From: Bacteroidota bacterium | GTDB lineage: Bacteria > Bacteroidota > Rhodothermia > Rhodothermales > Bin80 | Assembly (NCBI GenBank): GCA_026709335.1 | Contig: JAPOTE010000029.1 | Span: 1-53,824, forward strand | Length of the DNA: 53,824 nt | Reading direction: 5' to 3' | Part shown: piece by piece, positions 1,544 through 46,522 of the stretch | Position numbering within the stretch: position 1 is the stretch's first letter | Layout: each line of letters begins with the position of its first letter | The notes under the pieces: generated by a model | Told to the model about the DNA's origin: nothing | Database searches by the model: none | The model's input: only the letters and a program-made list of their open reading frames with translations | Position numbers and translations under genes: made by a program

Positions 1544-2893
1544 ATGATTCCGCTACTTATTCTTTTGCTGGGAATTATCATCGTGGTCGGTATGATTGTA
1601 GGCTTGCGAATCAATGCTTTTGTCGCACTGATTACCGCAGCAATTGTGATCAGTATCCTTTCTCCGGGAGAATGGTCTATCAAGATTGCACGAGTCGCGA
1701 CCGCCTTCGGTACAACTGCTGGAAGTATTGGGATCGTGATTGCCATGGCAGCGGTGATTGGGGTCACCATGATGAACAGTGGCGCCGCTGACCGTGTAGT
1801 ACAGGCCTTTATTCAATTCCTTGGACGGGAACGAGGAAGCCCTGCACTGGCAGCCAGCGGTTTTGTATTATCTATCCCTGTATTCTTTGATACGGTCTTC
1901 TACCTTTTGATCCCTTTGGCTCGCTCTATGTTTGCGCAGACTAAACGGGATTACCTGAAATACGTAATTGCCATTGCAGCGGGTGCAGCAGCCACTCATG
2001 CACTCGTCCCTCCTACACCAGGTCCATTGGTGATTGCAGGAAATTTGAATATCGACTTGGGGATCATGATTCTAATTGGGGTGCTTGTAGCTTTGCCCGC
2101 AACGATTCTGGGAGTCTTCTATGCAGGCTGGCTCAACAGAAGAATGCCTGTTCCAATGCGTGATGTGCCCGGTATAGAAACGAATACAGAACAACTAATG
2201 GCACTTCCAGGCTTAGGGGTTTCTGTGCTTCCTATTGCCCTTCCTATCCTCTTGATTGCAGGTAAAACGATTTTTCTCCCACTATTGAGCAATGACTCCA
2301 TTCTGGCTCGCTGGATCCTTGTATTTGGCGATGCAAATATCGCTCTGTTGTTGGCAGCCATTGCTTCTACGGGTCTCTATATCTACATGCGTCGACCCTC
2401 TCGCCAGAGCTTAAGTTCAATCATTGAACAATCTTTGATGAGTGGGGGATTGATTATTCTGATCACTGCTGCTGGCGGTACCTTCGGCGCGATGCTCAAA
2501 GAAGCACAAATTGGCCCTGCAATTAGCGACCTGTTCGCAGGAAGCTCCGAGGTGTCCGGAATAGGTATGCTCACGTTAGGTTTTGGAATTGCCAGTCTGC
2601 TCAAGTTTGCCCAAGGCTCATCCACCGTGGCCATGATTACAGCTTCTGCGATGCTTGCGGCAATGATCACTCCAGAAAGCTTGAACTTCAATGTCGTTTA
2701 CTTGGGTACAGCTATTGGTGGCGGCTCCTTGGTTGGATCCTGGATGAATGACAGCGGCTTCTGGATTTATGCCAAAATGAGCGGACTCACAGAAGTTGAA
2801 ACCCTGAAATCATGGTCCGTATTACTTGTCATACTCGGGGGTAGTGCAGGAATTATCTCCGTTCTCTTATCAATTTTTCTACCGCTTTCGTAG
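1544..2893 (+). CDS. gntP: GntP-family gluconate/sugar-acid:H+ symporter
   Basis: A 449-residue, almost wholly hydrophobic protein with 12 or more membrane spans, the usual length for GntP permeases. Diagnostic segments include PPTPGPLVIAGNLNID, the FDTVFYLLIPLARSM block and the C-terminal GSWMNDSGFW region. The family imports gluconate or related hexonic and aldonic acids with protons across the inner membrane. It lies 233 bases upstream of an IlvD/Edd-family dehydratase on the same strand, which fits a sugar-acid role. Specificity (gluconate, ketogluconate or another acid) is not resolvable. A 7-bp hairpin just after the stop (2906-2922) may separate the two transcripts. Confidence 0.85.
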   Translation: MIPLLILLLGIIIVVGMIVGLRINAFVALITAAIVISILSPGEWSIKIARVATAFGTTAGSIGIVIAMAAVIGVTMMNSGAADRVVQAFIQFLGRERGSPALAASGFVLSIPVFFDTVFYLLIPLARSMFAQTKRDYLKYVIAIAAGAAATHALVPPTPGPLVIAGNLNIDLGIMILIGVLVALPATILGVFYAGWLNRRMPVPMRDVPGIETNTEQLMALPGLGVSVLPIALPILLIAGKTIFLPLLSNDSILARWILVFGDANIALLLAAIASTGLYIYMRRPSRQSLSSIIEQSLMSGGLIILITAAGGTFGAMLKEAQIGPAISDLFAGSSEVSGIGMLTLGFGIASLLKFAQGSSTVAMITASAMLAAMITPESLNFNVVYLGTAIGGGSLVGSWMNDSGFWIYAKMSGLTEVETLKSWSVLLVILGGSAGIISVLLSIFLPLS

Positions 2894-2905
2894 TCGCGCA
2901 TAGTG

Positions 2906-2922
2906 TGTGATAGATTATCACA
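2906..2922. terminator. 7-bp palindromic hairpin after the permease gene
   Basis: TGTGATA, a GAT loop and TATCACA begin 13 bases after the GntP stop codon. There is no T-run, so it may be a weak terminator or an operator-like palindrome (TGTGA-N-TCACA resembles Crp-type half-sites). Its function is unproven. Confidence 0.3.
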
Positions 2923-3126
2923 TTCTCCTAAGGCTCGTTGATACAGATAAAACATTAAAAACTTCCCTTCAAAACGGATCAGATAAATATCACGAAACCG
3001 CCGAAATTTTGAGCTCGTACAAATTCTACGTGATTCTATCTTCCCCCATTCTCCGACTACACGTCAGAAAATTGGATATCCATTTATAAAATCTTATGTA
3101 TCAATGAATTGTGAGCGGGTATAATT

Positions 3127-4806
3127 ATGAACCAGTACAGCAAACAGGTAACTCAGAACTCCCTTCAGGGAGGTGCACGCGCCATGCTACATGCAATTGG
3201 CTTGACAGAGGAGGATCTCAATAAGCCACAGGTGGGAATTGCCAGTATGGGCTGGGAAGGCAATCCCTGTAATATGCATCTCAATGATCTGGCAAAAAAC
3301 ATCAAGCTCAGCGTTAATGCCCAAGATTTAGTCGGCCTGATCTATCATACCATTGGTGTCAGTGACGGAATCTCAATGGGATCCTCCGGGATGCGATTTT
3401 CTCTGCCTTCCCGTGATATCATTGCTGAATCCATCGAGACGGTCGCATCCGCTCAGTGGTATGATGCTGTCATTGCAGTTGCGGGTTGCGACAAAAATAT
3501 GCCCGGATCCATCATGGCTCTGGCTCGATTAAATCGCCCCGGGCTCATGGTGTACGGAGGAACCATCAAACCTGGATGTTGGAAAAACCAGCCAATTGAC
3601 ATTGTGTCCGCCTTTGAAGCTGCTGGACAGCGGGCAACAGGTGCGATCACTGATCAGGATTTTCGTGAGATTGCTCGCCATGCCTGCCCCGGCGCTGGCG
3701 CCTGTGGCGGAATGTATACGGCTAATACCATGGCGTCTGCAATAGAAGCCCTCGGTATGAGCCTCCCATTTGACTCATCCTATCCTGCCGTCAGTCAGGA
3801 AAAACAACAGGAAACCAATCAAGTCGGAGGTGCCATCTATCAGCTGCTAGAAAAAGACCTCAAGCCTAGAGATATCCTCACTCGGGAGGCGTTTGAAAAT
3901 GCCCTGCGAATCGTAATTGTTCTCGGAGGATCCACCAATGCTGCTTTGCACCTTATTGCGATGGCCTCCGCCGCAGAAATCCCTCTGACACTAGACGATT
4001 TCCAGTCCATGAGCGAGCGCACTCCTCTACTGGCTGATCTTAAGCCCAGTGGCCGTTTCGTGATGGAGGATCTCTACAACGTGGGAGGTGTACCTGCCGT
4101 GATGAAAATGCTTCTTGAAAATGACCTCCTGCACGGCGACTGTATAACCGTTACGGGGAGTACTATCGAGGAAAATTTATCAGAAGTGGCTGACCTGGAA
4201 ATAGGACAAGAAGTGATCCGCCCTCTGGATCGCCCAATTAAGAGTACAGGACATTTACAAATTCTTTATGGTAACTTGGCCCCTGAAGGCGCTGTCGCTA
4301 AAATTACCGGAAAAGAAGGAGAGCGTTTCGAGGGAATCGCACGAGTATTTGACAGCGAAGAAGAGGCAATGGATGCAATCCTGGGTAATCTCATCAAGGC
4401 CGGAGATGTAATCGTCATACGTTACTGCGGTCCCAAAGGAGGTCCGGGAATGCCGGAAATGCTCCGACCGACCGGTGCAATCATGGGAGCCGGGCTGGGA
4501 ACTGACGTTGCCCTCATCACCGATGGACGCTTTTCTGGCGGCACACATGGATTCGTGGTTGGACACATTACACCTGAAGCACAGATTGGTGGAATGATCG
4601 CACTGATCCAAGATGGAGACCTCATTACGATTGATGCGGCGAATCATGTCCTAACATTAGCAATCAGCGACTCCGAACTCAATGTACGACGCAGCAACTG
4701 GACAGCCCCACCGCTAAAAGCAAATGCAGGTGTTCTATTGAGATATGCAAAAACCGTCTCCTCTGCCAGTCATGGATGTGTCACCGATGCCTTTCCTGAA
4801 ATCTGA
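3127..4806 (+). CDS. ilvD: Dihydroxy-acid dehydratase (IlvD/Edd family)
   Basis: A 559-residue IlvD/Edd-family protein, normal in length. It is strongly like true dihydroxy-acid dehydratases through the segments [35 protein letters not shown] and [18 protein letters not shown]. Three cysteines (C48, C121, C193) match the ligands of a [2Fe-2S] cluster. The usual reaction converts 2,3-dihydroxy-isovalerate or its homologue to the 2-keto acid in branched-chain amino acid synthesis. No other ilv genes are nearby. The neighbour upstream is a GntP permease, so a sugar-acid (gluconate or xylonate) dehydratase role is an alternative. The sequence itself favours IlvD. Confidence 0.85.
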
Positions 4807-39312: not shown

Positions 39313-39909
39313 TCAGGATTTTTGATGAACTACCATCTGGCGCGCCACGTATTTGGCAAGGATATCAAACTCAACATTGCAACAAGTTCCCGGCTGCCAA
39401 GAGGATGCATTCGTATGCTGATAAGTATGGGGGATTATAGCAATGGAGATGTGAGATTCGCAGAGATTGGCGATGGTCAAACTAATTCCATCTACCGCAA
39501 TAGACCCGCGTGGAACGACCAGTCCCAAATACTCCTCAGAAATAAAAAATTCGTATAAACGTTCGCCATCTTGTGCAGATGTCCGCGTCACCAAGCAGGT
39601 CGTGTCTACGTGTCCCTGTACTATATGTCCATCCAATCGGGAATTGGCAATCATAGCTCGCTCGATGTTGACCGCTGCACCGGCCGTCAACTGCCCCAGC
39701 GTGGTTTTTGAAATTGTTTCAGGCACTGCCGTGACGGTAAATGCGTCTGGGGCACAGGCGGTCACACTCAAACATGCACCGTTTATAGAAATACTCTGAC
39801 CAACATACAGTTCTGAAGACAACGGAGTGCTGACGCTGAGCTTCCGTCCATAAGAGGTTTCGGTGATACTCTTCAGGTGACCAACCTGCTCTACCAGACC
39901 TGTAAACAT
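39313..39909 (-). CDS. ribE: Riboflavin synthase, alpha subunit
   Basis: 198 residues from the ATG at 39909, at the conserved start MFTGLVEQVGHL. An upstream start at 39945 adds 12 unlike residues. The protein has two tandem lumazine-binding repeats, the first around GQSISINGACLSVT and the second around RGSIAVDGISLTIA, with HIVQGHVDT between them. It dismutates two 6,7-dimethyl-8-ribityllumazine molecules to riboflavin in the cytoplasm. It follows ribD by 80 bases on the same strand, a partial riboflavin operon. No FMN riboswitch is visible upstream. Confidence 0.95.
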   Translation of the reverse strand: MFTGLVEQVGHLKSITETSYGRKLSVSTPLSSELYVGQSISINGACLSVTACAPDAFTVTAVPETISKTTLGQLTAGAAVNIERAMIANSRLDGHIVQGHVDTTCLVTRTSAQDGERLYEFFISEEYLGLVVPRGSIAVDGISLTIANLCESHISIAIIPHTYQHTNASSWQPGTCCNVEFDILAKYVARQMVVHQKS

Positions 39910-39989
39910 ATTGGGAGAAAGCCTAATAACTGGAAAAATAGACAATGAGATGCCCGCTTCCCAAAGAAATCCTCATTCATGACACATTC

Positions 39990-41114
39990 CTATGCCGGAA
40001 CCGGATGTTTATGCCCCGTAAATAACTGATCTTCTCCAATGGATTCCCAAGAATATTCATTGAAGATAAAACAATTCCGTAACTGCTTGACTCCCAGATC
40101 TCCGAAAGCGTGCAAGCCATCACCAATGAGTTTGGGGGCAATCAAGAGCCTGAGTCGGTCAATCAGATCTTGCTGTATGAGTGTTGAAGCCAGCCTTGGG
40201 CCCGCCTCTACCAAAAGCGACTGGATCTGCATCTGCGTTCCAAGCAAACGGATGAGTTCTGACAATATCACACGATTGGATCTCGAAGGAGCAATTATCA
40301 GGCGGACACCTTTGTCGGAGAGTTGATCACAGTATTGAGATGTGGGCCTGTTTGCAACAATAGCAACGGTTTTGGATGCCCACTCATCGGTAAAGACCTT
40401 GAGTGTAGAAGGCAATTCGGCTTGCCCATCAAGTATAATCCGCCACGGCTGGATTCCTGATACATGCCGAACCGTCAAACTTGGATCATCGGTTCGCGCA
40501 GTTCCCGATCCTATCAGAACAGCATCATTCTCGGCTCGCCACACATGAACACATTTTCGTGCAACCTTTCCAGTAATCCACTGACTTTCTCCTTTTGCTG
40601 TTGCAATACAGCCGTCAAGAGTTTGCGCAAGTTTCAAGGTTACAAATGGGATCTGCCTTGTCTGCCAATGAGCAAAAGCCTCATTAAATCGATAGCACCT
40701 TGATTTGAGTACATCAGTCATGACAGAGATATTCGCAGATCTGAGCCAATCGATCCCTCCGGCAGCCACTGGGTTTGGATCTTTCATTCCAATTACAACC
40801 TGCGCAACCCCGGAATCAATGATGCTGTGTGAACAAGGTGGAGTGCGTCCTTGATGATTGCACGGCTCAAGATTAACCACCAGAGTTGATCCTTGAAGTG
40901 CCTGCGCTCCCTGCTGTGAACGAACCTGATTGATGGCTTCCGCCTCTGCATGAAGCCCACCTACTCTTCTGTGCCACCCCTCCCCGAGAAGCTTCCCCTC
41001 GGGGCTTAAAATCACACAGCCAACACGAGGGTTGGGGCTGGTGGCATTGTCTGCATTTGCTGCCAATGAAAGGCATCGTTCCATCCAGTGCGCGGCGGCC
41101 TCATGCGATATCAT
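39990..41114 (-). CDS. ribD: Bifunctional riboflavin deaminase/reductase RibD
   Basis: A 374-residue two-domain enzyme. The N-terminal deaminase carries the zinc motifs HAEAEAI and PCNHQGRTPPC. The C-terminal reductase (~150-370) includes KLAQTLDGCIAT, QWITG and VEAGPRLASTLI. It converts diamino-ribosylamino-pyrimidinone phosphate to the ribitylamino product in riboflavin synthesis. It is cotranscribed with ribE downstream. It is preceded by the amidohydrolase gene 95 bases upstream on the same strand. Confidence 0.95.
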   Translation of the reverse strand: MISHEAAAHWMERCLSLAANADNATSPNPRVGCVILSPEGKLLGEGWHRRVGGLHAEAEAINQVRSQQGAQALQGSTLVVNLEPCNHQGRTPPCSHSIIDSGVAQVVIGMKDPNPVAAGGIDWLRSANISVMTDVLKSRCYRFNEAFAHWQTRQIPFVTLKLAQTLDGCIATAKGESQWITGKVARKCVHVWRAENDAVLIGSGTARTDDPSLTVRHVSGIQPWRIILDGQAELPSTLKVFTDEWASKTVAIVANRPTSQYCDQLSDKGVRLIIAPSRSNRVILSELIRLLGTQMQIQSLLVEAGPRLASTLIQQDLIDRLRLLIAPKLIGDGLHAFGDLGVKQLRNCFIFNEYSWESIGEDQLFTGHKHPVPA

Positions 41115-41209
41115 GGAATCAAATATGGTCTAAAAATCAAAATGACCCCCTTGCCTTCCGGTATCTGATGGAGCGCTCTGACATCAAAATACGCTTGACC
41201 AAAACCGAA

Positions 41210-42919
41210 TCACTGCTCTTTTTCGTACAGAATTGAGCCACCCACAATCGTGTAAAGAACCTCCGTGGAGAGGATTTCTTCGTCTGGAATGGTGAGAATA
41301 TCCTTTGATAGAACCGTAATATCCGCCAGTTTACCAGGTTCAAGTGAACCCTTGATATCTTCTTCAAAGGCAGCGTATGCATTATTGAGTGTATAGGATT
41401 GCAGGGCCTGCTCTCTGGAGAGTCGTTCACTGGGGTAAAAGATGGAACCGTCTGCCAAGGCACGGGTCACTGTTGCATAATAGTTTGCAATCGGATCAAT
41501 AGCTTCTACTGGTGTATCGGTTCCATTCGTGACCACTGCTCCAGTCTGCCATAAGGTCTGCCATCGATATGCACCACTTTCCGCTCTTTCTGCACCCAGA
41601 CGGCGATACACCCATGGAGCATCACTTGTGGCATGAACCCCCTGCACAGATGCAATAACTCCCAAACTGCCAAATCGAGATATATCATCCGGATGAAGAT
41701 GTTGTGCATGCTCAATCCGCCAGCGCAAATCCTGACCTTCAGCCCCGTAAAGTGACTCGTAAATATCTAATACAACACGATTCGCCCGATCTCCAATCGC
41801 ATGGACGTTGAACTGGAACTCATGGAATTTTGCAATTTCTGCGGAGATTCGGACTTCATCTACCGCAGTAGTTTCGAGGCCTCTTGACTCCGGTAGATCC
41901 GAATAGGGTTCAAGCAGCCAGGCACCATGAGATCCTAATGCCCCGTCGATAGAACGCTTCACACTGCGTACGGTCAAATGATTGTCTCCGTAACCAATCA
42001 TCCGGTAGGATGCCAACTTGTCAGATAACTCTGTGCTATTTGCACGGATCATCACATAAAGTCGAACGGGTAGATTGCCTTCGTCCGCGAGTTTTCGAAA
42101 GAAATCTACGATATCAAACCCCACACCCGCATCGTGAAAGGATGTGATTCCATGGGTAAGAGCTTCTTCAGCAGCGAGTTGTGCCATGGTACGCAACTCT
42201 GCATCCAACTCAGCAGGACTCATACTCTCTCTTGCCTTTTCCAGTGCAGCAGCCACAAAATCCTCGGCAGTTTCCCGCAGAAGCCCAGTCAATTCTCCAC
42301 GTAGATCACGTACAAGCTCTCCGCCAGGAGGATTGGGCGTTTCCGGGCTGATCCCCGCAGCATTCATGGCAGCCTCATTTGCAAAGGCGGCATGGCCGCT
42401 TGCATGACGCAGAAAAACAGGATTGTCCGGAGACACTTCACTGAGGCTGTGATGTGTAGGGACACCTTCCACAGTTCCGACTGGAATTGAGTCCCATTTC
42501 TCCTGATGCCATCCACGACCAGTAATCCATTCGCCTGGCTCAGATTCTGACACTACAGAATCAACCATTGCAATGATCTCATCCCAGCTCGCTGCCTTGG
42601 TGAGATCCAGAATCATTTTTGCCTCTCCAAGGCTAAGAAAATGTCCGTGCCCTTCAATCAGACCAGGGATGGTAAATTTACCTTCCAGATCAATCACCCG
42701 GGTCTCCGGACCAATGAAGTCCTTAATTTCTTCGGTAGTTCCCAAGGCAAGAATCGTATCACCACTGATGGCCAGGCTTTCCACTTCTGGCTGGGATGAA
42801 TTGAGAGTTATAATCCTGCCATTGGTCAGAACAAGCCGCGCATATTCTTCACTGGAACAGCCCATAGATGATAGGACAAGGAATACGAGAACACTGCTTT
42901 TCAATAAGGTGTATTTCAT
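41210..42919 (-). CDS. Lipoprotein amidohydrolase, YtcJ-like
   Basis: About 569 residues from the ATG at 42919. The signal peptide ends in a lipobox (LSSMGC). Amidohydrolase-3/YtcJ features: LILTNGRIITLNSS-like NGRIITLNSS, EGHGHFLSLG with the metal-binding HxH, DLTKAASWDEI, SFHDAGVG, FNVHAIGDRANRVVLDIY, WRIEHAQHLHPDDI and NGTDTPVEAIDP. Members hydrolyse amides or cyclic imides. Specificity is unknown. Secretion as a lipoprotein places it at the envelope. It is probably its own transcript, since a 310-base gap lies upstream. Confidence 0.85.
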   Translation of the reverse strand: MKYTLLKSSVLVFLVLSSMGCSSEEYARLVLTNGRIITLNSSQPEVESLAISGDTILALGTTEEIKDFIGPETRVIDLEGKFTIPGLIEGHGHFLSLGEAKMILDLTKAASWDEIIAMVDSVVSESEPGEWITGRGWHQEKWDSIPVGTVEGVPTHHSLSEVSPDNPVFLRHASGHAAFANEAAMNAAGISPETPNPPGGELVRDLRGELTGLLRETAEDFVAAALEKARESMSPAELDAELRTMAQLAAEEALTHGITSFHDAGVGFDIVDFFRKLADEGNLPVRLYVMIRANSTELSDKLASYRMIGYGDNHLTVRSVKRSIDGALGSHGAWLLEPYSDLPESRGLETTAVDEVRISAEIAKFHEFQFNVHAIGDRANRVVLDIYESLYGAEGQDLRWRIEHAQHLHPDDISRFGSLGVIASVQGVHATSDAPWVYRRLGAERAESGAYRWQTLWQTGAVVTNGTDTPVEAIDPIANYYATVTRALADGSIFYPSERLSREQALQSYTLNNAYAAFEEDIKGSLEPGKLADITVLSKDILTIPDEEILSTEVLYTIVGGSILYEKEQ

Positions 42920-43237
42920 GTCGATCACAGAATTACCAAAGTCGTGTTTTAGTTAGGGGATGCCATGGACACATCTATCCATTTCAAAAAATCATCTGAA
43001 TTCAAAAATAAGTTGTGCGGAGATCGTTAAGATACCTGCCGTTAGAGCGAGCTTGATCTGAATCGCTGTCAGTGACCGAGGTGTTCTGATTGATTTTCAC
43101 TTCACATCTCCCCTGTATCAAAATCGCGGATTGCGCTCAATCCTATCGAAATACAGGACAATAGTTGCGTAAAATACTGTAACTTGAGCTATTGATCGGA
43201 GATTCGGTAAGAATTCAGGACATTATCAACAAATAAC
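42920..43237. other. Divergent intergenic region
   Basis: About 318 bases separate the amidohydrolase and cupin starts. I see no gene, repeat or clear structured element here. Promoters for both genes are expected. Confidence 0.4.
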
Positions 43238-43603
43238 ATGAGCAAACAGGCAACACTTCACAGATGGGATGACATACCAGTTGAAGCGGTCAAATCTGGA
43301 CTTGGGCGAAAGATCATTGCAGGCGAAAAAATGATGATTGCACATGTTTTCCTTAAAAAGGACAGCGTAGTGCCGTGGCATTCACACGAGAATGAACAGC
43401 TTACCTATATCCTCGAAGGTACTCTGAAGTTTTGGCTTGGAGAGAATGGAGAACAGGAAATAGTTGTACACGAAGGAGAGGTGTTGGTCATTCCATCTCA
43501 GCTCCCCCATAAGGCAATCGCACTTGAGGATACACTTGATCTAGACATTTTCTGCCCACCTCGCCAGGATTGGCTGGATGGGACGGATGCATACCTGCGT
43601 TAA
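43238..43603 (+). CDS. Small single-domain cupin protein
   Basis: A 121-residue protein with one cupin barrel. Motif 1 is HSHENEQLTYILEGTLKFWLG (metal ligands H, H and E) and motif 2 is PSQLPHKAIAL (histidine). The C-terminal PPRQDWLDG segment recurs in a family of small cupins of unknown substrate. It is cytoplasmic, with no signal peptide. It stands alone on the plus strand, with a hairpin 62 bases downstream and the defence-like island beyond. Confidence 0.85.
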   Translation: MSKQATLHRWDDIPVEAVKSGLGRKIIAGEKMMIAHVFLKKDSVVPWHSHENEQLTYILEGTLKFWLGENGEQEIVVHEGEVLVIPSQLPHKAIALEDTLDLDIFCPPRQDWLDGTDAYLR

Positions 43604-43664
43604 TCTTTCGTGATTGCTCGCGATCGTTTCCCTATCGGGGGGCAACCGTTATTTGCTGGAACTT

Positions 43665-43682
43665 AGCCCAAAAATTTGGGCT
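43665..43682 (+). terminator. Hairpin downstream of the cupin gene
   Basis: AGCCCAA, four bases, then TTGGGCT form a 7-bp stem with a GC-rich base, starting 62 bases after the cupin stop. A loose T-rich stretch follows. It is a plausible terminator for the cupin gene. Confidence 0.4.
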
Positions 43683-43853
43683 ATCTTGGATTTGGGAGTA
43701 CATTCCTTTGTATTTCACAAAAGATCTAAGGCAGTCATAAGCGTCTATTATGAACCTTCCGGCAAACTTCGAAGAATTCTTGTGTGATCTCCGGTATGGA
43801 AAATGGAAGTTACCTCACGATTTACGATCATTAATGCGAGTGTCGCTTGCTTA

Positions 43854-44480
43854 GGAGGCGTCCAAAGCATGTCTAATGCCCTCTTCGTCGCTTGTATATC
43901 CATCCATAGAGCGACTTAATTGTGCTTGCTAATGCTGGGTGCTTTAACACTCCTTTTTGCAGGAGAGAGTCAATTGCAGGTTAGCCATAGAGTTTTGAAT
44001 GGCAATTCCCTGTGCCTCAGAATTTCGCGGAAAAATTTGGTAGGGCTTACTTGAGACGTCAAACAAATATGCCACTCCATATCTGTCAAAGGCATTGTTG
44101 ATGTCACGAGGAAACTGTTCAAGTTGCGTGTTGAGTCGACTAGATTTACTTGATCCCCCGTCGTCCTGATAGTTAGCAATGTACTGCAGTAGATCGAAAA
44201 CTTTGTGAAACGGGGAATCGTCAATTATAGACTGCAGTTGTTCAAACAGCGGACCCCACGTGCCGACAATACTAAGCATACTTTTCTCAAGGCACGAAGC
44301 TATTGCACGACGACACATCTTAGGTCTAGGCTTATTCTCATCCCATCCCCAGTTGCCTCCACCAGAGACAATGTTATAAATGATGTTGAAGACAGCTGTC
44401 CTGGCCTTTTCGGAGAGATACTCCAACTTCATAGATTCTGGCAATGGATCATAACCAAATCGCTGAGAAAACGATTCGGA
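43854..44480 (-). pseudogene. Decayed AbiJ-like (AbiJ_NTD4/HEPN) defence gene
   Basis: The main open frame (43944-44444, first start a TTG) encodes a region like the AbiJ N-terminal domain 4. In-frame sequence upstream reads FSQRFGYDPLPESMKLEYLS but has no ATG before it. Past the stop, a shifted frame reads LQKGVLKHPALASTIKSLYG. A third frame resumes with GYTSDEEGIRHALDAS (43854-43902), as in AbiJ/HEPN C-termini. The second shift coincides with a tandem GGAT duplication near 43896-43908, since removing four bases restores SLYGYTSDEEG. The central HEPN region also appears shortened. The family gives abortive infection against phage. This copy is broken at several points and probably inactive. 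Confidence 0.6.
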
Positions 44481-44735
44481 TTTGCTTGCCCAGCTTAGAT
44501 TGTTAGATTTTAGATTATAGTATGGTTTGTCTACCTTGGATTGGCGGGTTGTACAGAATGTAGGGGGGAGATGTTTATCAGTGGTTTTCCTTCTACGATG
44601 TGGTGCGGCGACTTTTGCTGTTCATCGATATAGAGCCGTGAATTACAGCTTCCAACAGAGATCTATCTGAGGCTTCAGATAGTACAAGATGATCAAATCC
44701 TTGAAGTCAGATTTGACGTATTACTCCACCAACCA

Positions 44736-45662
44736 ATGAGCACCAGGAAGCACAAATCCTCGAGAGAAGACTATCCAGAAAGCTTGAACGAAAACGATGC
44801 GCCTAATGCGGATACGCTCCATTCACTGGAATGCCAGTTTGTGGAGGCCATGAAGCCGCTCAGTCTCTTGGCTCGCCAATTTGAGAAGGAGATCAAACCG
44901 CTAAAGCTTTTTTCTCAACGGATTTACAAGCAACTAGAATCCTTTAGGACGATATCTTTCCAGATAGCAGAGAAGCGGGAGACTCTACAATCGGCACTTT
45001 CCCCATGTGTGGCTGAGATTACAACCCTAGGGACTATATGGAGGATGCACGATCGAGCATATGAAACAGGTTGGATTCTCTGCCCTGATGTATCAGATTT
45101 TGACGGATATCAAAATATCTTGAAAAAATCGGGGGAGGACGATGAAACCTTAGATAGATGTATCTCAGAGTTCTATTCCGTGAATTGGCCCAGAATAGGC
45201 TCCTATTTGAGGTCAGAGTTCTCAACGTATTCACTGGACGAACTCTCGAAGTCAGCATTTTGTACTGCACTTACATTGCATGGAGCAGATAAATACGATC
45301 TAGTCCCTCGAATACTGTTCCCAGAGATTGAGAGGGTGATACGAATAAAATTGTTTGAAAATTCGCAAGGCAAGATCGGAAGCAAGGCTATGATTGAAAA
45401 TTTTGGGAAGAAATATTCTTGGCGGGAGGTGACTACGCGGAGCCCTATAACACACCACATTCTATTCGGTGAACTTATACGCTGGGTGTTTGCGGATTGT
45501 AAAACACGGGGTGCTATTGAGACACATTGCGTACCAAACCGACATGAGGTGATTCATGGACTTGATATTACTCTCACATTCAAGGACAGTGTGAACATGC
45601 TACATCTTTTCGTTTTTCATAATGGGAGTAATGCAATCCGAACCACAAGATATTTCTCCTGA
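44736..45662 (+). CDS. HEPN-like protein with an RX4H motif
   Basis: A 308-residue protein I cannot place in a named family. Near its C-terminus is VPNRHEVIHG: R269 and H274 form the R-x4-H motif typical of HEPN ribonucleases, preceded by the LFPEIERVIR helix often found in such proteins. The N-terminal third is helical and rich in Lys/Glu (residues ~30-90), possibly a coiled coil. HEPN proteins act as toxin or abortive-infection RNases. It is divergent from the decayed AbiJ-like gene and is followed after two bases by a short ORF in the same direction. The RNase role is inferred from one motif plus context. Base composition is more A-rich than in flanking housekeeping genes. Confidence 0.6.
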   Translation: MSTRKHKSSREDYPESLNENDAPNADTLHSLECQFVEAMKPLSLLARQFEKEIKPLKLFSQRIYKQLESFRTISFQIAEKRETLQSALSPCVAEITTLGTIWRMHDRAYETGWILCPDVSDFDGYQNILKKSGEDDETLDRCISEFYSVNWPRIGSYLRSEFSTYSLDELSKSAFCTALTLHGADKYDLVPRILFPEIERVIRIKLFENSQGKIGSKAMIENFGKKYSWREVTTRSPITHHILFGELIRWVFADCKTRGAIETHCVPNRHEVIHGLDITLTFKDSVNMLHLFVFHNGSNAIRTTRYFS

Positions 45663-45667
45663 ACGTG

Positions 45668-45907
45668 ATGAAACGTAGATGCCTGACCACAATACCCCTG
45701 CAGGTACAAGTGCAGAACGCGGAATTAGAGTTGCTGTTTGAGAAAGCAACCAACATTATAGCCAAGTTCATCAAGGAAATGGACGACACACATGAGTTGT
45801 TTGTGAATGCATACGAAGAGCACTGGGCGCGGAAAACCAGTGGAGCAGTGCGCGAGGATTCTCTCACTGCTGTTATATTGTACTCGTTCGCCGAAATACC
45901 ACAATGA
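45668..45907 (+). CDS. Small protein of unknown function, coupled to the HEPN-like gene
   Basis: 79 residues from the ATG at 45668, with a GTG in frame at 45665. It begins 5 bases after the HEPN-like stop and ends in an ATGA overlap with the next short ORF, so the three are probably one transcript. A basic N-terminus is followed by a helical stretch (ELELLFEKATNIIAKFIKEM). I do not recognise it. Its size and coupling are consistent with an antitoxin or accessory protein, but that is inference. Confidence 0.5.
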   Translation: MKRRCLTTIPLQVQVQNAELELLFEKATNIIAKFIKEMDDTHELFVNAYEEHWARKTSGAVREDSLTAVILYSFAEIPQ

Positions 45908-46053
45908 TGTACTTGTATGCAGGTAAAAGCGTGTACGAACTATTATCTCAGGAACTAACCGAATTCAGCGAATCCGAAATACAGCGTAAACTATCCCCTG
46001 AGATACGAATAATGTTTGTCCAGATTCAACAACAAAAACAGGAATGCCTGTAG
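45904..46053 (+). CDS. 49-residue coupled micro-ORF
   Basis: The ATG at 45904 overlaps the preceding TGA by four bases, giving 49 residues that begin MMYLYAGKSVYELLSQEL and end in a Gln-rich tail (QIQQQKQECL). The acidic, amphipathic composition and the exact ATGA junction suggest translation as the third gene of the HEPN-like operon. There is no recognisable family. A second in-frame ATG lies one codon in (45907). Confidence 0.45.
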   Translation: MMYLYAGKSVYELLSQELTEFSESEIQRKLSPEIRIMFVQIQQQKQECL

Positions 46054-46081
46054 CTCATGGAAGAGAGAGCCAAGTACTATC

Positions 46082-46119
46082 AGAGCAAAGGCCATTTTTT
46101 TTGAATTGGCCTTTGCTCT
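46082..46119. repeat. 13-bp perfect inverted repeat with T-rich loop
   Basis: AGAGCAAAGGCCA (46082-46094) pairs exactly with TGGCCTTTGCTCT (46107-46119) around a 12-base loop containing eight consecutive T. It sits 28 bases after the micro-ORF. A classical terminator would have the T-run after the stem, not in the loop, so this may be a bidirectional or unusual terminator, or the edge of a mobile island. Confidence 0.5.
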
Positions 46120-46163
46120 CAACATAAGAGACACAAAAACGGAGTAGGGACTCTGCCAGCCCC

Positions 46164-46457
46164 ATGAAACCCTCCAAGCCAAAGATCAAACGTGATCTAT
46201 CTGAGCTCTATGCAGAGTTCGACGAGGCAATGCATACTCCGAGTGTGAATCTGCGCTATGAAGGAATGACACCAATAGAATTCCTACAACGAACGGCCAG
46301 TATTGAGCAAAATCAAAAATTGAAAAATCAGAGCCTGTGCGCTGAGCAGTTAATAGATGCAGTTAAGTACATAATTACAAAAAAGTACGGCAAGAGCCGA
46401 AGGATCCTAGTTTTGGAAGAGTCTCCCGTGCTTAAATCTTCCCTTATGGGAACATAG
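46164..46457 (+). CDS. Hypothetical 97-residue protein
   Basis: A 97-residue ORF with a Lys-rich start (MKPSKPKIKRDLSELYAEFD), a middle segment MTPIEFLQRTASIEQNQ and a basic C-terminal half (VKYIITKKYGKSRRILVLEE). There is no signal peptide or known domain. It lies between the inverted repeat and tatA, on the same strand as the HEPN-like operon but 110 bases after it. Codon use and composition match the island, not the tatA-gatA block. It could be a small DNA-binding protein. The function is unknown. Confidence 0.45.
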   Translation: MKPSKPKIKRDLSELYAEFDEAMHTPSVNLRYEGMTPIEFLQRTASIEQNQKLKNQSLCAEQLIDAVKYIITKKYGKSRRILVLEESPVLKSSLMGT

Positions 46458-46522
46458 CATGATGGCTGGTGTTTCTAAGCTCATTAACCCTAATTTCGCA
46501 ACTCAATTACTGAGAATACATC

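Follow-up and report, generated by a model that had tools for sequence, protein, structure and literature searches.

A recently inactivated AbiJ_NTD4/PDC-S32 defence gene candidate in a Rhodothermales-type genome

AbiJ proteins occur in R-M operons; their N-terminal domains (AbiJ-NTDs) have been proposed to interact with components of phages, and their C-terminal HEPN domain to act as a toxin causing cell suicide (PMC3710099). That defence systems are gained, lost and left as pseudogenes is known as a general phenomenon (PMC8791490). The PADLOC family PDC-S32 is itself a phage-defence candidate only, and we found nothing on it in the literature.

We analysed a window of 53,824 nucleotides, which is contig 36 of the genome G000 (2.8 Mb, 97.8% complete), a Rhodothermales-type draft assembly in 125 contigs. 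A broken AbiJ_NTD4/PDC-S32 gene lies on the minus strand of the window at 43862-44504. The gene is a recent pseudogene, a case of ordinary genome decay in a known kind of defence gene, and the locus can no longer make a complete protein. We consider it almost certain that a single-gene defence candidate was shared horizontally within the genus and then inactivated in G000. For the purpose of comparison we used three congeners (G002, G003 and G007) and a genome from another genus of the same family (G011).

Family assignment and homologues

The first segment of the gene, which contains FSQRFGYDPLPESM (43982-44504, minus strand), lies in an open reading frame (44621-43947) that matched the Pfam family AbiJ_NTD4 (PF18863) with 43.1 bits and an E value of 7.5e-11, above the curated cut-off of 34 and across profile positions 2-148 of 152. 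The same segment matched PDC-S32 (E 1.2e-15), as did a third segment of 25 residues, YTSDEEGIRHAL (about 43862-43897, minus strand; E 7e-5, profile positions 238-253). When the region was searched with the G002 protein by tblastn, the main segment scored 202 bits and 100 shuffles gave at most 22.7 bits, indicating that the family match is far from chance. Because the gene is broken, the window copy does not match the whole PDC-S32 profile, and covers only positions 8-141 and 238-253 of 285. An earlier note, made from the letters of this DNA, had proposed an inactivated AbiJ-like defence gene, and this is borne out by the Pfam and PADLOC matches and by the lesions described below; the AbiJ match that it had suggested seeking in the shifted frames was found there.

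The homologues in G002 and G011 are intact. The G002 protein has 305 residues and shares 53% amino acid identity with the window copy over 177 aligned residues, and the G011 protein shares 47%. Both matched the PDC-S32 profile over nearly its full length, that of G002 at positions 5-279. A profile built from these two proteins detected a copy in G007, where one end of a 4.7-kb contig (C86) carries the intact C-terminal half of the gene. The N-terminal half is unassembled, and the G007 copy may therefore not be whole; we rejected the idea that this half had been lost by a lesion, since the missing part corresponds to the contig end. G003 carries only a small broken remnant with its own separate deletion; this copy is broken independently of that in G000. 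Scanning of the contig collection with the window fragment as query gave no confirmed relative, and scanning with the two-protein alignment of G002 and G011 gave the G011 record only.

The C-terminal half of the intact relatives showed no match in Pfam to HEPN, the domain marked by an RX4-6H motif, the structure model of the G011 protein was poor (mean pLDDT 41.9), and no solved structural relative was found by sequence search. The intact protein would consist of an N-terminal sensor-like domain and an AbiJ-type C-terminal half, putatively a HEPN RNase. By analogy with AbiJ proteins (PMC3710099), the intact gene may have acted by abortive infection.

Lesions in the window copy

Flanking the breaks, the G007 copy is almost identical in DNA to the window copy (50 of 50 nt before, and 113 of 116 nt after), and G007 therefore defines the damage. 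Compared with it, 157 bp are missing from the window between 43982 and 43981, and the frame is shifted at this junction on the minus strand. The loss takes the first part of the C-terminal half, in which the well-conserved DAIxDSIHAVESV lies, and the deleted stretch is absent relative to G002 and G011 too. The G011 sequence pointed to a microhomology (CTGCA) at the deletion, which was rejected because it is not seen in the closer G007 copy.

Beyond the deletion, a second segment containing LKHPALASTIKSLYG / IDSLLQKGVLKHPALASTIKSLYG (about 43898-43981, minus strand) was identified in a shifted frame by tblastn with the G002 protein and by blastn to G007. A tandem GGAT at 43898-43907 (plus-strand letters ATCCATCCAT; gene on the minus strand) is an exact 4-nt insertion with respect to all three homologues, as G002, G011 and G007 are without the extra unit, and shifts the frame. 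The first and third segments share one frame and the second lies in another, giving two frames in total. The earlier note had rightly held the tandem GGAT to account for one shift exactly. Its three peptides are all present on the minus strand in the order that it gave, in two frames rather than the three that it had assumed. Its account of the lesions included the GGAT and missed both the 3' truncation and the largest lesion, the 157-bp deletion that separates its first peptide from its second.

Homology to G007 comes to an abrupt stop at position 43862, so that some 36 codons are lost from the end of the gene and unrelated DNA (43604-43861) stands in their place. An in-frame TAA within this unrelated DNA, at 43851-43853, was rejected as a nonsense mutation because the homology to G007 ends before it; IND after the TAA was rejected as a run of family residues, as homology had already ended. 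At the other end of the gene, the codon list of the in-frame upstream stretch (44505-44621, minus strand) showed no ATG, GTG or TTG before the domain, and in the alignment AAA takes the place of the ATG that G002 and G011 have. The start codon was probably lost rather than non-standard. This 5' lesion is the least certain of the lesions, as it is judged from relatives that are ~50% identical.

Decay of the gene is supported by three independent structural lesions, by the intact genes of G002 and G011, and by the separately broken remnant in G003; the draft state of the assembly, the half-assembled G007 copy, the distance of the relatives from which the 5' end was judged and the missing Pfam HEPN match for the C-terminal half call for some caution in this reading. 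Inactivation came about via the 157-bp frameshifting deletion, the 4-bp frameshifting duplication and the loss of the 3' end.

It is very improbable that the gene is intact and only appears broken through an error of assembly or sequencing. The genome is indeed a draft, but several lesions of different kinds lie within 650 nt, the neighbouring genes are long and open, and errors do not typically replace 3' DNA or remove exactly 157 bp. We give even less credence to the possibility that what is left of the NTD4 part still yields a short but working protein. Although its frame is open over 225 codons with a normal codon-position bias, a gene inactivated only a short time ago would be expected to keep an open frame anyway, no ATG, GTG or TTG occurs until inside the domain, and an NTD4-only gene was not seen among the relatives searched.

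A two-copy 4-mer is common on its own (217 in the window, or about four per kb), and the meaning of the GGAT comes from the homologues alone. The further suggestion of the earlier note, a phase-variable gene toggled on and off by slippage in GGAT copy number, is very unlikely: the tandem is real and explains one frameshift exactly, but it holds only ~2.5 copies, and the other damage (157-bp deletion, absent 3' end, no start codon) persists whatever the GGAT count and is irreversible by slippage, so that copy number alone does not decide whether the frame is open.

Transfer, age and neighbourhood

The window remnant and the G007 copy are 98.2% identical in DNA (163/166 nt), whereas the neighbouring core genes (tatA, gatA-like and those that follow) show 70.7% DNA identity between G000 and G007. 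The chance of 98.2% identity under the core divergence is about 1e-20 (P). The gene has therefore passed between species recently, either directly or via a third party, in keeping with its horizontal sharing within the genus. The recent decay proposed in the earlier note agrees with this difference. Window-specific changes fell on the three codon positions in numbers of 24/19/34, and those of the intact G002 gene in numbers of 22/19/35. This G002-like pattern indicates that normal constraint acted on the gene until a short time ago.

The site of the gene is variable: the tatA-gatA pair is kept in 10/10 genomes of the genus, but the window genes on the left side of tatA were not found in the other nine genomes within the ~9 kb searched beside it. 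Left of tatA (window 39313-46522), the neighbours differ between species groups, marking a variable junction. On contig C86 of G007 (1805-4747), the gene copy adjoins a type II R-M pair, a methyltransferase and a TdeIII-type restriction enzyme, which is family context for a possible anti-phage role.

A 308-aa ORF (44736-45662, plus strand) adjoins the remnant in the window. It contains PNRHEVIHG, a HEPN-like RX4H string, and gave no Pfam, NCBIfam or PADLOC match. Its homologue in G009 (73% amino acid and 84% DNA identity) carries an in-frame TAG, and remnants of its 3' end are present in G003 and G004. The following stretch (45665-46522) has short ORFs only, without convincing family matches for the two scanned, and includes an inverted repeat of 16 nt (46082-46119); it is possibly further gene debris.

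G000 and G003 each carry an independently broken AbiJ_NTD4 gene, and the 308-aa HEPN-like gene is damaged in G009, G003 and G004. It is conceivable, if on the doubtful side, that HEPN-type defence genes are inactivated time and again in the genus, and that this reflects their recurrent acquisition by transfer and selection against the cost they impose, as opposed to drift at a single locus.

Comparison with described systems

The locus offers a clear dated case of the gain and loss of a defence gene: the gene crossed species recently, as its near-identity to the G007 copy shows, and several lesions then disrupted it. A further lesson is that a short tandem unit should not be taken for a phase-variation switch.

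Like the AbiJ-NTD4/AbiJ HEPN proteins (PF18863; for example CBY_0614; PMC3710099), the window copy has an NTD4 domain above the Pfam cut-off, and its homologues terminate in the AbiJ-like stretch YGYTSDxxGIRHAL. Unlike them, the window gene is broken by deletion, duplication and 3' truncation; the C-terminal half of its intact relatives gave no HEPN match in Pfam. With respect to the PADLOC candidate PDC-S32, the outer two segments of the window gene fit the profile in the right order, and the intact relatives match it over nearly the whole length; however, the window copy is without ~52 internal codons and without the end. As with the transferred defence-system pseudogenes of PMC8791490, the window gene was probably gained by transfer and then decayed, and it differs from those pseudogenes (R-M, CRISPR/Cas) in gene family alone, being of the AbiJ type.
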